DNA of 64,000 nt from Henricia sp. BOLD:AAB3569 (Eukaryota > Echinodermata > Asteroidea > Spinulosida > Echinasteridae): NCBI GenBank assembly GCA_037783545.1, contig JBBELK010000054.1, forward strand, positions 372,001 through 436,000. The letters run 5' to 3'. Below, piece after piece: positions 9,129 through 15,201 of this stretch; the first letter of the stretch is position 1; the number at the start of each line of letters is the position of its first letter. The notes under the pieces were generated by a model that worked only from the letters and a program-made list of their open reading frames with translations, was not told the origin of the DNA and ran no database searches. The translations under genes and the position numbers were made by a program.

Positions 9129-9488
9129 TTGGAACCCCATGTGGTGCCTTATGCAGCGGCAATCGGCCAACAATTTATATTGATGGACGACAATGCCACA
9201 CCACACAGAGCGAGGATCACCAACCAATTCTTAAATGACCAAGGAATTGAGCGCCTGGAATGGCCATCAAAGTCCCCAGACTTAAACCCAATTGAACATC
9301 TCTGGGACCATCTCAAGCGGGAAGCAGACAAGAAGATCAAAGAAAACACTACTCTTCAGGAGCTTCAAAGAATCCTTGAAAACGCATGGGAGCGAGTTGA
9401 CCAAGGCCGTATCAGAAATCTTATCAACAGTATGGGTCGACGATGTACTGAAGTGGTTGATAAGCAAGGACGGCCAACCCATTACTAA
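9129..9488 (+). pseudogene. Tc1/mariner transposase, C-terminal half
   Basis: The frame keeps EPHVVPYAAAIGQQFILMDD, NATPHRARI and SPDLNPIEHLWDHLKR. The second catalytic Asp (MDDNATPHRA) and the DLNPIE glutamate of the DD34E triad are present, and the stop codon is natural (TAA at 9486). The N-terminal DNA-binding domain and the first catalytic Asp are missing: sequence upstream of 9122 is a different repeat. It cannot be a working transposase. Confidence 0.85.
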
Positions 9489-10490
9489 AACGAAAGGACA
9501 AAAAAAACTTTTCATTTCCACAAAACCTTTGTTAAAAAAAAAAAAAGGTTTTGGAAGCATTAACAACATTGCTTTGCTTGGGTGACTCTAATTTACTGTA
9601 CTTCGTAAATTTAGAAAATTAAAAACCAAAACCAAAACATTAAATGCATGTTTACATTTGTACACTTTAGAAAAATTGAATTGAAGTGAGAAAAGAATAT
9701 TACAAATTCTGTAAAAACATGATTTCATCAATTTGTCAAATCCCTATGCAAGAAAGTGTTATTTTTAATTGGTCATCAAATTTACTAAATGGCAGCATTT
9801 CAAGGCGAGGGTTAACTGTTGGGTGAAACTTTATTGCACATTAAATGTGTAACATTTTACTCTACATTTTACATTTTTGTAACAGGTAAAGGAGCCTAAC
9901 TGTTTTCCAGAAAAATTTAAATTTCTAGGGGTTACTTATTTCTTTTGACCTGTTTATTATGGTATCTGTGCATGCGAGCTACAAAATAGTACTCACCCCT
10001 CCATTAATGGTTTGACCCACAGCAGCAGCAACAAAATGGCTGCCACCGCGCGCACCGCGGAAAATTAAAACAACCTCACAAAAAAGTAATATTTTTAGTC
10101 ATTTTTAGCAGCTTTACATCATAAATACGGCATTTACTTTGTCAGTATGCTAGAATCTATTCTTTCTGATTAAAATGTGGTATTTGGTGGTAGTTGGCGG
10201 CAGTTGGCGGCAGTTGACGGCAATTAGTATGACCGGATATGGCCTCCTTAATTTGATTTTGTACTTGGTGAAGACTTGGTGATTTTTTCAAAATACTGAC
10301 AAGTATTGAAGTGATGACGCAGTTAAAATTGGCGCGCTGACGAGCAGCCACCGAAACACGTCCGACCAGTTTCGTGTCTCACCGAGAATCCCTGTTAAAC
10401 AGATCTGAAAACTCAACTGATATCAAAATGAATACAAACACATGCAAATATTCACAACCACAATATGAACTTTCGTGATTTCCTCCCACC
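9489..10490. other. Intergenic AT-rich DNA
   Basis: No credible gene. It contains a poly-A tract at 9534-9546, a short run of GGCGGCAGTT/GGCAGTTGACGG repeats at 10186-10222, and a GC-rich AATGGCTGCCACCGCGCGC stretch at 10034. Confidence 0.5.
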
Positions 10491-10590
10491 ACTTTATCTT
10501 TGACACATATCAAACATACTGACAAACATGTCCCGAAACAGAAATGTTGCAAATGCGAGAAATCATCGGGGATTCCCTTCGAATACTACA
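10490..10590 (-). repeat. Fragment of foldback family (reverse of 14525-14620)
   Basis: ACATATCAAACATACTGACAAACATGTCCCGAAACAG matches the reverse complement of 14545-14612 and, more loosely, 57900-57950. The matching sequence resumes at about 12940, so the MULE lies inside a copy of this family. Confidence 0.65.
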
Positions 10591-10593
10591 GGT

Positions 10594-10730
10594 CAACTCG
10601 TACGCGAGCCAACTCGTACGCGAGCCAACTCGTACGCGTGCCAACTCGTACGCAAGTTGGTCAAGTCGTACACGTGCCAACTCGTACACACACCAACTCG
10701 TACGCGTGCCAACTCGTACTCATCGTTATT
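10594..10730. repeat. 16-bp subterminal repeat array, left arm
   Basis: About eight head-to-tail copies of CAACTCGTACGCGNGC, the first three exactly 16 bp apart (10594, 10610, 10626). Each carries the palindrome CGTACG. The right-arm array is its reverse complement. Confidence 0.85.
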
Positions 10731-10787
10731 TTAACGGAATCATTTTAACGGGATATATTAATTTGTTTTCCCCTGCAGACTGCAATC

Positions 10788-12003
10788 ATGAACCAATTGA
10801 AGAACATATTTCTTCCCTGGCCTTCTCTAACCAGCTCCACCCTTTTACAAGTTTTAGAGGCAGGAGACTTAGTTTATGGAATTCGCACGGAGGAATTAGG
10901 AAACCCATTCCCGGTGGGCACGCGATGCCATGGCTTCCGCGGTCGTCGGGAAATAAATGTATCATCACATCCTCTTCTGATCGCCCCAAACTTTTTTTTC
11001 CGATTGTTGGAAACATCTTCCGATTGTTGGAAACATCTTCCGATTGTTGGAAACATCTTCCGATTGTTGGAAGATGCCAGACATCTCATCTTCATGACCG
11101 ACGAACAAGTATCAATCCTCGATCAAGCTAAGACATGGTATCTAGATGGCACATTCAAGGTCGTACACAAGCCGTTTATGCAGATGTTTAGCGTCCATGC
11201 TTTCGTCAAGTCGGAGTTGGGATCCCAGAAACAGATCCCTTTGGCCTTCTGCCTGATGTCCCGCCGAACCAAGAAGGACTATCGCAAAGTTCTTCGGGCA
11301 ATCAAGAAAAGACTGCCTTCAAAGGGGAGGGGGGGGGGGGGGGGGGGGGAACGCGCAACATTTCGTCGCCGACTTCGAAGCTGGCCTCTGCAGTCTGCAC
11401 TGAGGATCATCTTCCCAGACGGTCACATCCAGGGGTGTCGATCACTGGACCCAAGCAGTCTGGAGACAGTGCAAGCACTGGGACTGGCTGTTCCCTACAC
11501 AACAGACGCATATATCCAGCGGTGTATTCGGAAACTCATGTCACTGCCGTTTCTGCCACACGAACACATACAGGCTTCATTTGAGAAGATAAGGCTTAAG
11601 ATTGACGAACCAACCCTCTCCCGTCTGTTCAGCTACGTCGACAACAACTGGCTACAAAGCTCCGTGTGGCCGCCAGCCAATTGGTCTATATTCAACCATA
11701 GCATCAGAACCTTGCAACAACGACGTCGAAGGCTGGCATCGGCGGTTAAACTGCAAAGCCGGTCGTGCCGGATTGCAGCTCTACAAGATCATCCCGCTGC
11801 TGCACCAAGAGGCCACTCTTGTCAATCTTCAGAAGGTGCTAGTGCGGGAGTCCAAGCTCTGCAGAAACCAACGCCGGAATACAAGACAAGTTCAAGGAAG
11901 AATCTTCCAGCTGTGGGAGAAATACACCAACGGCAGCATCAAGACATCCGCTCTGCTCTCTGCATGCAGTCATCTGCACGGCCCAGCACTGTCAACCAAT
12001 TAA
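10788..12003 (+). pseudogene. MULE transposase, frameshifted
   Basis: In one frame 11080-11320 reads TWYLDGTFKVVHKPFMQMFS and FCLMSRRTKKDYRKVLRAIK, the Mutator transposase core with the first catalytic Asp (DGTF). A 21-G run at 11329-11349 breaks the frame. The HWTQAVW block (11436-11456), with the C-x2-H region, needs another frame. SSVWPPANWSIFNHSIRT and later NNDVEGWHRRLN (11722-11757) lie in two further frames. The reading ends at a TAA at 12001. No N-terminal FLYWCH-type finger is visible. At least three shifts mean it is dead. Confidence 0.8.
11001..11073. repeat. 20-bp tandem repeat inside the MULE pseudogene
   Basis: CGATTGTTGGAAACATCTTC is repeated three times exactly (11001, 11021, 11041) with a fourth partial unit. 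It lies just 5' of the conserved transposase core and probably expanded after inactivation. Confidence 0.9.
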
Positions 12004-12005
12004 TC

Positions 12006-12021
12006 GGTTCTTTTCAGAACC
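12006..12021 (+). promoter_or_regulatory. Histone-type 3' stem-loop 1
   Basis: GGTTCT-TTTC-AGAACC has the canonical six-bp stem and TTTC four-base loop of metazoan replication-dependent histone mRNAs, followed by AC. It starts 3 nt after the MULE stop codon. Confidence 0.6.
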
Positions 12022-12023
12022 AC

Positions 12024-12060
12024 GGCCCTTCCAGGGCCACACAATATCCAAAAAGAGATT
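12024..12060 (+). promoter_or_regulatory. Histone-type stem-loop 2 with purine-rich downstream element
   Basis: GGCCCT-TCC-AGGGCC (12024-12038) is a six-bp stem with a three-base loop. CCAAAAAGAGATT (12048-12060) lies about 10 nt downstream and resembles the histone downstream element (CAAGAAAGA-type) that pairs with U7 snRNA. Confidence 0.5.
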
Positions 12061-12085
12061 TCTGTAAATGCCAACAAAACCAATC

Positions 12086-12101
12086 GGTTCTTTTCAGAAC
12101 C
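12086..12101 (+). promoter_or_regulatory. Histone-type 3' stem-loop 3
   Basis: Exact repeat of GGTTCT-TTTC-AGAACC in the same orientation, 80 bp after the first. A partial copy (GGTTCTTTTCA) follows at about 12270. Confidence 0.6.
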
Positions 12102-12840
12102 AAACGGCCATGCACACACACCCCTCCTCCTCAAAAAGGAATTGTTATAAAAATTGTTATATTTATTAATACACACAGTGTGTTAAAACCCACGTTTCAC
12201 GTGGGTTTCAGTTCAACACAATATACAGAAAAATGACAACAATCGAGTAGGCCTACCCAAAACCACTCGGTTCGGTTCTTTTCATTTTTAAAGTTCATTT
12301 CAGATGCTTTCGTTTTAGCGCAAATATGAATGCAGTTTGGAATCATACTTCAATAATTTAAAAAAGAGCATTAAGTTTGGTTTTCGAGCACGCAATCGGG
12401 TTGCAATGGGAGACTTTTGAGGAGCAATATCAACAGAGGGCGCCAAACATACGGTCCCAGCGCATTTCGCGCCACGATGACAGCCATTGCATTACACGTA
12501 TTTTCGTGCTAAAAATGCGGTTAGGAAATGTTTTTTTTTACTATTAATTGAGGAAAGAGTGTGGTATGGTGTGGGGTTAAGGTAGTTATCGACAAAACAC
12601 ATCAGTATGCAACATATGCATAGGGGTTTAACCAATCAGAAGCAATGTTCGCTAAACAGCGGTACGGAAAAAAATATCGCGTACGGGACTTCATTGCTGA
12701 GAAATAGAGCTCTGAAATTGAAGAAATTTACGTCCACACGTAAAACAAACGAGACCGAAGTCAGAAGAAAATCACTTCCGGGATCGTGAAGGGCGCCCTC
12801 TTGTGTCTAAACCAGGATAGCCAAAAGTCTCCCATTGGTC

Positions 12841-12920
12841 GCGTACGAGTTGGTCCGCGTACGAGTTGGCACGCGTACGAGTTGGTCGGCGTACGAGTTG
12901 GCACGCGTACGAGTTGGTTA
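12841..12920. repeat. 16-bp subterminal repeat array, right arm
   Basis: Five exact-period copies of GCGTACGAGTTGGNNN at 12841, 12857, 12873, 12889 and 12905, inverted relative to 10594-10730. Together they form the subterminal inverted arrays of the MULE. Confidence 0.85.
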
Positions 12921-13002
12921 CGTAGTGGTAAAGTACAGTCTGAGTACCCCGCTCGCAGCTCGGTATGCGCTCCCCAACGACTAGTCTTGGCCCAAGACTA
13001 CT

Positions 13003-13656
13003 CTAGTCGATATTGGTTTGTGTACGCGTTGGCCATATAGTGCGCCCTCTTGCAGCACTAACGGACCAGTCTTTGCTCACTAGAGTAGTCTTGGGAATTT
13101 CTCCCGGAAGTTCAGCATTGGGGGCGGTACCGTTTTATGTAAATAGCTGCAGAGGGTTTTATGATGGCACACAAGGGACATGGCATACCACAGATATCTT
13201 TGCAAAAATTTGCAATGTCGCAATTATCTTCATAAACAAATGTATTTTGCGATGTCATACGCCTTTGCAAACATGTTTGTAAATATATTCGCAAACATTT
13301 GCCAAGAAACTTATGCCACCGAAAATATTAGCAACGATAAAACGGTCATGTTCGATGATTTTTGTAAGCCGCCTTATATTTTTCAAACCATTCGAAGCGC
13401 GTGCACGCGGTGTATTTGGGTCACGCTCTGCGGTCGACGCGCTGTATTTGGGTCACTCGCTGCATTCCCACGCTCTGCTGTATTTGGGTCACTCGCTGAT
13501 TGGTTCCCTAGGAAAGCCTAGGCAAAAACAAAGAAAAAGTTAAACCTTCCGGGAGAAATTCCCAAGACTACTCTAGTGAGCAAAGACTGGTCCGTTAGTG
13601 CTGCAAGAGGGCGCACTATATGGCCAACGCGTACACAAACCAATATCGACTAGAGG
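13003..13656. mobile_element. TIR element with about 105-bp inverted ends
   Basis: 13003-13108 and 13548-13656 are near-perfect reverse complements (outer CTCTAGTCGATATTGG, inner TTCTCCCGGAAG/CTTCCGGGAGAA). The 440-bp core carries three GTATTTGGGTCAC units (13409, 13445, 13480). No transposase; non-autonomous. Confidence 0.8.
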
Positions 13657-13793
13657 GCTGCGTTCGGGCGTGCAGTTCTCGTTTCTCGGGAGTAATGCGT
13701 GCGCATTGCACTCGGGTCACATCACGCGAACGGCAAGTCGGCATGCCGCATGCGCGAATGGCAATCAGTGAAGATGGCCGTCTCTTGCCATCA

Positions 13794-15201
13794 CTACACA
13801 AAAAACGTCGTTTTACTGCTCAAAAGAAACTGAGGAAATACAGGCCGTAAGTCGTGAGAACCTCTGATGCCGTCCAAAACAAACCTTAGTGAGTTGTTGT
13901 TTCAGTTATCCAGTTGACACGTTGAGCAAATTCACCAAAAATCCAACCTATATCCCGCCATCTTCGTACTAATCACATGGCATTCGTCGGGAGTAAGAGC
14001 ACACTCCCCATTTGTTGGGGAGTACCGAGAGCATACTCTCACTGACCCGAGTGTCGTTATTCTTGCCGTTCGCGCGCGCAGGAGTATAACTCGTGTTAAC
14101 ACGAGTACACGCCCGAACGCAGCCATGTAGTCTTGGGCCAAGACTACCCAACGACACGCGCTGTATCGGCACGGCGCTGGTTGGATTGAGTGTGCTGCAT
14201 GCACTGCGAGTCTGCCCCCGCCAATATAAATTTTTAAAAAACGTTTTTAAAAATGCATATCGTCAGAAATGATGCTTTATTTTCAGTATCTATAAAAAAA
14301 AATTAAAGGTTTGAATTGCACAATGTTGTGATATTTTAGAGGAAGTTTTTCAAGATGCGCTATTTCAGAAACGGCAGGAATGTGTTGTGAAACTCAACAG
14401 TTTTACCAGGGGAGTCCGTGTTCACGGACTTGCAGTGCAGCACACTCAATCCAACCCGTCTGTGCCGATACGGCGCGTGTTGCATAGCGCATACCGAGCT
14501 GTGAGCGTGGTACTCGGACTCTACCGATACGAAGGAAATTCCCGATGATTTCTCGCATTTGCAACATTTCTGTTTCGGGACATGTTTGTCAGAATGTTTG
14601 ATATGTGTCAAGATAAAGTGGTGGGATTCTTGAACTCTTTTTGGTTTTCGTGAAAATAGGTAAAAAAGTTGCCGAGTTGGCGTCCGCCTCAGTCATAAGC
14701 TAAAAGCGGTTTATGTACCCCTAGAACTATGGGGGATACAGTATCCCCCATAGGTTATGTTGTTTTTTTCCAATATGGCGGCGCCTGAACTTTAAGATCG
14801 GACCGATACGGTTTAAGCTAGCGCAATAATCCGCTCCCCAATCGCCACCAAACTCCGTCTGATAGTTCTTGAGACACTCACCTTGCGTGTGTCTACGGAA
14901 GCGGTCCCATTTGTCCACTAAATTCTCCGAAAATAATGTTGGGAAATGAACGGGAACATGTGCGATGCATCCACATGCATTTTACCGAATGCCTCAATCA
15001 TGCATGTGGATGCGTCGCACATGTTCCCGTTCATTTTCCAACATTATTTTCGGAGAATTTAGTGGACAAATGGTACCGAAATTCCGTAGACACACGCAAG
15101 GTGAGTGTCTCAAGAACTATCAGACGGAGTTTGGTGGCGATTGGGGAGCGGATTATTGCGCTAGCTTAAACCGTATCGGTCCGATCTTAAAGTTCAGGCG
15201 C
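13794..15201. repeat. 1408-bp direct repeat, copy 1
   Basis: It matches 19114-20521 at a constant offset of 5320 bp. All stretches I compared were identical. It contains a foldback element whose right arm is cut off at 15201, where the TIR-bounded segment begins. Confidence 0.85.

Follow-up and report, generated by a model that had tools for sequence, protein, structure and literature searches.

A candidate histone-type mRNA 3' end beside the stop codon of a group of MULE transposons, and in Penelope-like elements, of the sea star Henricia sp.

Two hairpins of the histone type, a further hairpin and a purine-rich element directly follow the stop codon of a MULE transposase remnant in Henricia sp., and comparison of copies across the genome indicates that they probably form an mRNA 3' end of the replication-dependent histone type, which is part of a group of MULE transposons and would bring with it S-phase or maternal-type expression. 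A signal of this kind is also present in Penelope-like elements, an unrelated class in this genome, and we lean towards the view that both classes of element use a histone 3' end, their enzymes being translated, in S phase or out of maternal stores, from messages that lack poly(A) and are bound by SLBP. To our knowledge, this 3' end is known in animals mainly from replication-dependent histone genes. The finding extends beyond one transposon; its parts are known, and a search of openly accessible journal papers at the level of titles and abstracts found no report of histone-type ends with transposons, retrotransposons or Penelope-like elements, nor with non-histone genes.

Results

Hairpins and purine element at the stop codon

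The window, i.e. the whole 64,000-nt stretch of DNA analysed, contains at positions 12,001–12,003 a TAA which, from the letters read directly, is the stop of a broken MULE transposase remnant. A first-pass annotation had described two exact GGTTCT-TTTC-AGAACC hairpins near this stop and a third six-bp hairpin with a purine-rich element, and all of these were confirmed (Table 1). The first hairpin, which had been placed 3 nt from the stop, actually lies 2 nt from it, and 7 nt from it in better-kept copies of subfamily A, the subfamily of the window copy. The 15-nt hairpin sits between stem-loop 1 and the purine element and is altered in some copies (e.g. L007, L008), and the purine element of the second unit is missing in the window and present in L004–L006, L008 and others.

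The pattern GGYYCTTTTCAGRRCC, allowing up to one mismatch, occurred twice in the window (0.01 expected), and none of 100 shuffled sequences had two; the stem-loop pair is far beyond chance. RNA folding gave z = -3.27 for positions 11,998–12,068 and z = -2.27 for 12,075–12,120. With the Rfam Histone3 model (cut-off 34) the stretch scored below the cut-off, at 25.5 bits (third hairpin plus purine element) and 17.7 bits (stem-loop 2), and the purine element lies 29 nt from stem-loop 1, as compared to 11–17 nt in nine host histone hairpins. An Rfam scan of the whole window at the cut-off returned tRNAs only. The window holds a decayed, atypical copy of subfamily A.

Table 1. Features of the MULE copy and its 3' end in the window.
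Feature	Position	Strand	Remarks
Putative left terminal inverted repeat, ~98 bp	10484–10581	+	94/98 identical to reverse complement of 14530–14626
16-bp tandem repeats (CCAACTCGTACGCG..)	10594–10719	+	core 10609–10719; inverted relative to 12840–12919
Transposase, first part (broken)	10749–11712	+	open frame; long G run near 11330–11350
Transposase C-terminal piece, other frame, NNDVEGWHRRLN ... GPALSTN	11713–12003	+	136-aa open frame; 56 matching genome rows
Stem-loop 1, GGTTCT-TTTC-AGAACC (GGTTCTTTTCAGAACC)	12006–12021	+	histone-type; 2 nt 3' of stop
Third hairpin, GGCCCT-TCC-AGGGCC (GGCCCTTCCAGGGCC)	12024–12038	+	15 nt; 6-bp stem, 3-nt loop
Histone-downstream-element-like CCAAAAAGAGATTT	12048–12061	+	from window letters, Rfam match and comparison of copies
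Stem-loop 2, identical to stem-loop 1	12086–12101	+	opens second ~80-bp unit
16-bp tandem repeats	12840–12919	-	inverted copy of 10594–10719
Stretch between right tandem repeats and right terminal repeat	12920–14529		contains inverted repeats
Putative right terminal inverted repeat	14530–14626	-	partner of 10484–10581

Transposase and element boundaries

The reading frame of the window transposase shifts near position 11,710, and the stop at 12,001 therefore belongs to the C-terminal piece and not to the long open frame 10,749–12,236, which passes through the hairpins. In L004 and L006 the transposase ends with ..HGPAL and its stop lies 7 nt 5' of stem-loop 1; judged by these copies, the later stop in the window copy is a change of its own. 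The MULE transposase domain (PF10551, cut-off 27.6) was firmly matched in a relative from subfamily G (E = 1.4e-10, 41.9 bits) and below the cut-off by residues 130–189 of the window copy (E = 4.3e-4, 21.1 bits), i.e. the enzyme had been identified correctly at the outset, but the broken window copy itself is a weak match. The G run inside the transposase frame varies in length and purity between copies.

The 98-bp terminal inverted repeat probably bounds this MULE, which appears to be flanked by 16-bp tandem repeats in inverted order. Positions 12,920–14,529 would represent a nested insertion; they contain nested inverted repeats (110 bp at 13,001–13,110/13,546–13,655, 100% complementary, and 46 bp at 12,933/14,479) that are probably elements inserted into the right end. 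Elsewhere in the window, positions 14,781–15,201 comprise two long inverted repeats that share a centre (complementarity 100% over 120 bp and 96% over 79 bp) and are a large hairpin-forming repeat, and a putative end of a Tc1/mariner-like transposase (..LINSMGRRCTEVVDKQGRPTHY stop) was recognised by eye at approximately 9,180–9,488.

Census of MULE copies

The host genome searched comprised 740.7 Mb of one species. The 120 bp from position 12,001 gave at least 44 matches (best 40 of 63 candidates scored), nine of which span 108–120 bp at 91–100% identity. The census was performed with the 96-aa transposase C-terminus and not with the hairpin as query, so that copies were not picked by their hairpin; it yielded 56 rows corresponding to 54 loci, two rows being second pieces. 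Among these protein-found loci, a hairpin lies just 3' of the stop at 38 out of 39 loci of the window's group and at none of the 15 loci of other MULEs. By subfamily, a stem-loop follows the stop in 13/13 loci of A (the window type), 6/6 of B, 6/6 of G, 13/13 of F and 0/1 for the fragment C57. Sequence was read for 35 of the 38 stem-loop loci, while three F loci (C409:156677, C129, C1902) rest on Rfam matches over the cut-off located 7 nt from the protein match. C57 is identical to B at 51/87 and to G at 50/87 positions, as compared to at most 38/87 for four signal-less copies, and since it is closer to B and G it was counted in the group, which sets the group score at 38/39. Subfamily F was likewise placed by similarity (25/51 to B and 22/51 to G versus at most 17/49).

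At the 16 loci without the signal, the 451–491 nt fetched gave no match to Histone3 at E ≤ 1, and the downstream stretch fetched lacked any perfect six-base GG..CC hairpin with a loop of 4 nt. In an unrooted tree of 14 copies, eight without the signal cluster against A, B and G with a support of 0.998; the tree left out copies with fewer than 100 aligned residues, and F, C57 and others were placed by similarity.

The first-pass annotation had proposed to look for the hairpins at the same place in other copies of the family and had named a stray histone-gene 3' end as the alternative. The census bears out the former and speaks against the latter: the matching stretches are copies of the element, and no listed histone match (best 150 of 1124 histone candidates scored) shares a contig with any of the 54 loci. 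Matches of 78–83% identity had at first looked like histone genes, and the eight that were read are derivatives of the same element. Short derivatives of the window element (L009–L012, L014–L017) have an altered stem-loop (3-nt loop or broken stem) and kept CCAAAAAA-type elements; no transposase similarity was found in these eight. A second, inverted subfamily B 3' end with one stem change is present inside a single B locus (L024:2217–2262).

Conservation of the signal between subfamilies

A GGYYCU/AGRRCC stem with a 4-nt loop was found throughout: GGTTCT-TTTC-AGAACC in A, in two tandem units of ~80 bp, GGCTCT-TTTC-AGAGCC in B and identically in a family C, GG(T/C)TCT-TTTA-AGAGCC in F, mostly with one U-G pair, and GGTCCT-TTTC-AGGACC in G, where it occurs twice, 31 bp apart. 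The distance from stop to hairpin is 7 nt in A, 26 nt in B (L024), 18 nt in G and 8 nt in C and F, and stays within 7–27 nt across at least four subfamilies. Across the final 87 codons, stop included, A, B and G are 40–49% identical at third codon positions and 56–61% identical in residues; despite this divergence they keep the stem, the loop and the AAAGAGA-type element, with paired changes at two stem positions. In a set of 15 stem-loops from MULEs, Penelope-like elements, family E (see below) and histone genes, all chosen for having a hairpin, 90/90 pairs form and two pairs are changed on both sides. The covariation score of this set was reached by 0/500 shuffles, the count of doubly changed pairs by 27/500 and that of 'further pair types' by 419/500.

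The start of the purine element lies 14 nt 3' of the hairpin in B, 12 nt in C (11 of 12 loci; L048, with a changed element, was filtered out) and 11 nt in F and G, and thus falls within the range of the nine host histone hairpins in these four. In A the spacing is outside this range (27–34 nt in 17/22 units), and the element is missing or changed in the other five units. Subfamilies B and F, family C and Penelope-like copies score over the Rfam cut-off, and A (25.5 bits) and G (27.8 bits) below. With 46.9 bits, B is at the top of the 75 listed Histone3 matches (best host histone 44.0 bits, H4 cluster C835 38.7 bits), which are the best 75 of 128,444 first-look candidates and not a sample. They comprise 33 at histone genes (8 read, the remainder assigned by position in clusters), 20 in MULEs (7 B, 13 F), 12 in family C, 2 Penelope-like copies, 6 of family E and 2 of unknown nature. 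In family C, four of the 12 loci still read ..LFS[AS]CRHMIGPVI with a stop 8 nt 5' of the hairpin and a fifth ends similarly; the family is absent among the protein matches to the transposase C-terminus and, from these remnants, is a probable decayed MULE.

Penelope-like and other carriers

In the whole genome there are 658 occurrences of GGTTCTTTTCAGAACC (327 + 331) and none of the reversed control pattern. Twenty places among the first 100 of these 658 matches all contain a 5'-truncated repeat, family D, which in one of them is present in inverted order only. In family D a GIY-YIG piece lies 5' of the hairpin (PF01541, 27.9 bits for a 129-aa piece; cut-off 22.6) and the stop 241 nt 5' of the hairpin; the 272-aa frame of this family gave no PF01541 match at E ≤ 0.1. 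A sister of family D, C298 (68% identity with the GIY-YIG query), contains a reverse transcriptase core (PF00078, RVT_1, 43.5 bits; cut-off 29.6) within an open frame of 847 aa. Reverse transcriptase and GIY-YIG, the combination by which we recognised Penelope-like elements, were found for families D and C298. In C298, GGCTCTTTTCAGAGCC and AAAAAAGAGATTT follow ~150 nt 3' of the stop and reach 35.0 bits with Rfam (cut-off 34), and the stems GGTTCT (D) and GGCTCT (C298) represent a paired change between two families. The four D loci scanned scored 35.9–40.5 bits. Twelve of 25 D hairpins have an exact AA[AG]AGA within 8–16 nt and nine others have ACAAATGAGA instead. Among four more distant Penelope-like copies, one retains a degraded stem-loop (24.6 bits), another a degraded hairpin beside an intact AAAAGAGA, and the remaining two have no stem-loop.

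The Penelope-like copies L115, L117, L136 and L142 (C412, C92, C298) have the stem-loop and the AAAGAGA element after the frame. Further GIY-YIG matches at 63–67% identity on C95, C159, C1094 and C708 recur mostly every 9–11 kb, i.e. as tandem arrays; the Penelope-like copy on C95, the one array checked, is without a stem-loop. Hammerhead ribozymes are described in Penelope-like elements (PMC11167929). A hammerhead ribozyme in the present family, suggested by CTGAAGA..CGAAACG, was rejected, as Rfam returned none for L065, L069, L117 and L107 (E ≤ 0.5) or for L136 (E ≤ 0.1).

Family E (L040, L041, L042, L044, L045, L109) consists of non-histone genes or repeats with the C-terminus ..LTPVMRRFVRTGFLR and a canonical histone 3' end; in 4/6 the hairpin follows the stop at 22 nt, two pairs lie ~5 kb apart in inverted order, and two L042 pieces gave no Pfam match. 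The stem-loops GGCTTTTTTCAGAGCC at L105 and L106 (C11:76832, C760:35849) score 34.4 bits, are accompanied by AAAAGAGA and have a tail that resembles family D. Viral contigs contained no relative of the G transposase and no match to two stem-loop-plus-element patterns.

Host machinery

The host encodes SLBP (PF15247 over the cut-off, four exon matches at two loci), and its histone genes carry the same kind of 3' end. The U7 model RF00066 had no match in the host genome, a result that does not show absence; a U7 pattern gave 18 matches, of which two were fetched; one was an inverted repeat, the other a stretch without remarkable features, and neither was U7-like by eye.

Discussion

The element ends resemble the replication-dependent histone 3' end (RF00032 plus histone downstream element) in the 6-bp GGYYCU/AGRRCC stem, the TTTC loop (TTTA in F), the A-rich 5' flank and ACC/ACA-type 3' flank, and the AAAGAGA-type element 11–14 nt downstream in B, C, F and G. 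Unlike histone ends, they follow a transposase or retroelement frame, with the hairpin as little as 7–8 nt from the stop; A and G double the hairpin, and A has an extra hairpin and a wider spacing. With MULE/Mutator-like transposons (PF10551) the group shares the domain (over the cut-off in G), the NNDVEGWHRRLN C-terminal block and, putatively, terminal inverted repeats, whereas the 15 loci of the same genome outside the group have no histone-type end. Families D and C298 are like Penelope-like elements in their reverse transcriptase and GIY-YIG, their variable 5' truncation and their common 3' part, but unlike known ones they carry a histone-type stem-loop and an AAAGAGA element after the frame. 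The first-pass annotation was right about the anatomy and probably right about its meaning.

It is known that MULEs can take up pieces of host DNA, as Pack-MULEs do, and the hairpin, its flanks and the purine element look histone-like, above all in B; a captured histone gene 3' end is a plausible source of the signal and may well be how it arose. That such a captured end has since been carried passively, without function for the element, we consider unlikely: a passive piece would decay, and persistence beside the stop in several subfamilies, through paired changes and at third codon positions of 40–49% identity, counts against it, as do the eight short derivatives without detected transposase, all of which have an altered hairpin (although these may share one event). 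We regard it as highly improbable that the hairpins act at the DNA level, as transposase binding sites or excision structures. Tandem sites are usual for transposase binding, and A has two tandem units and G two closely spaced hairpins; yet the sites are found next to the stop, on the coding strand, and not at the element ends, their loop, flanks, purine element and spacing resemble those of host histone ends, a retroelement without transposase has the same signal, and other MULEs of the genome are without it.

There is little probability, too, that the hairpin merely makes the message more stable or helps termination, with no part for SLBP, U7 or S-phase control, the real end being a poly(A) site farther down. 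A[AT]TAAA motifs do occur within 300 nt downstream in B, G and some C and F copies, where they are not group-specific, and some histone pre-mRNAs bear both kinds of signal (PMC9756948). A plain hairpin, however, needs no histone loop, no ACC-type flank and no AAAGAGA at a fixed distance, all of which are kept across subfamilies.

If the signal is instead a histone-type end that serves the element, the host SLBP would bind the element stem-loop, and the U7 snRNP would pair with AAAGAGAUU elements and cut the pre-mRNA a few nt downstream of the stem-loop, leaving a transposase message with a stem-loop, and no poly(A) tail, at its 3' end. In subfamily A, folding of the 15-nt hairpin would shorten the distance to 29 - 15 = 14 nt, back in the histone range. 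The transposase mRNA would then be made and kept mainly in S phase or, in the manner of maternal histone mRNA, be stored for translation in eggs and early embryos. Transposase supplied while chromosomes are being copied would favour a net copy gain for cut-and-paste elements. The same kind of end may have arisen in Penelope-like elements by convergence or exchange. Taken together, the sequence comparisons suggest that the carrier elements tie their own expression to the cell cycle.

If this is true, the elements would obtain from one short signal their timing in S phase, a message stability that does not depend on poly(A) and perhaps maternal storage as well, RNA-seq on poly(A)-selected RNA would overlook them, and mobile elements would have a hitherto undescribed way to synchronise with the host cell cycle. 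The elements offer a natural set of putative SLBP/U7 substrates other than histones, in which the spacing is altered and hairpins are doubled, and the coupling of transposition to replication, an old question, becomes directly testable.
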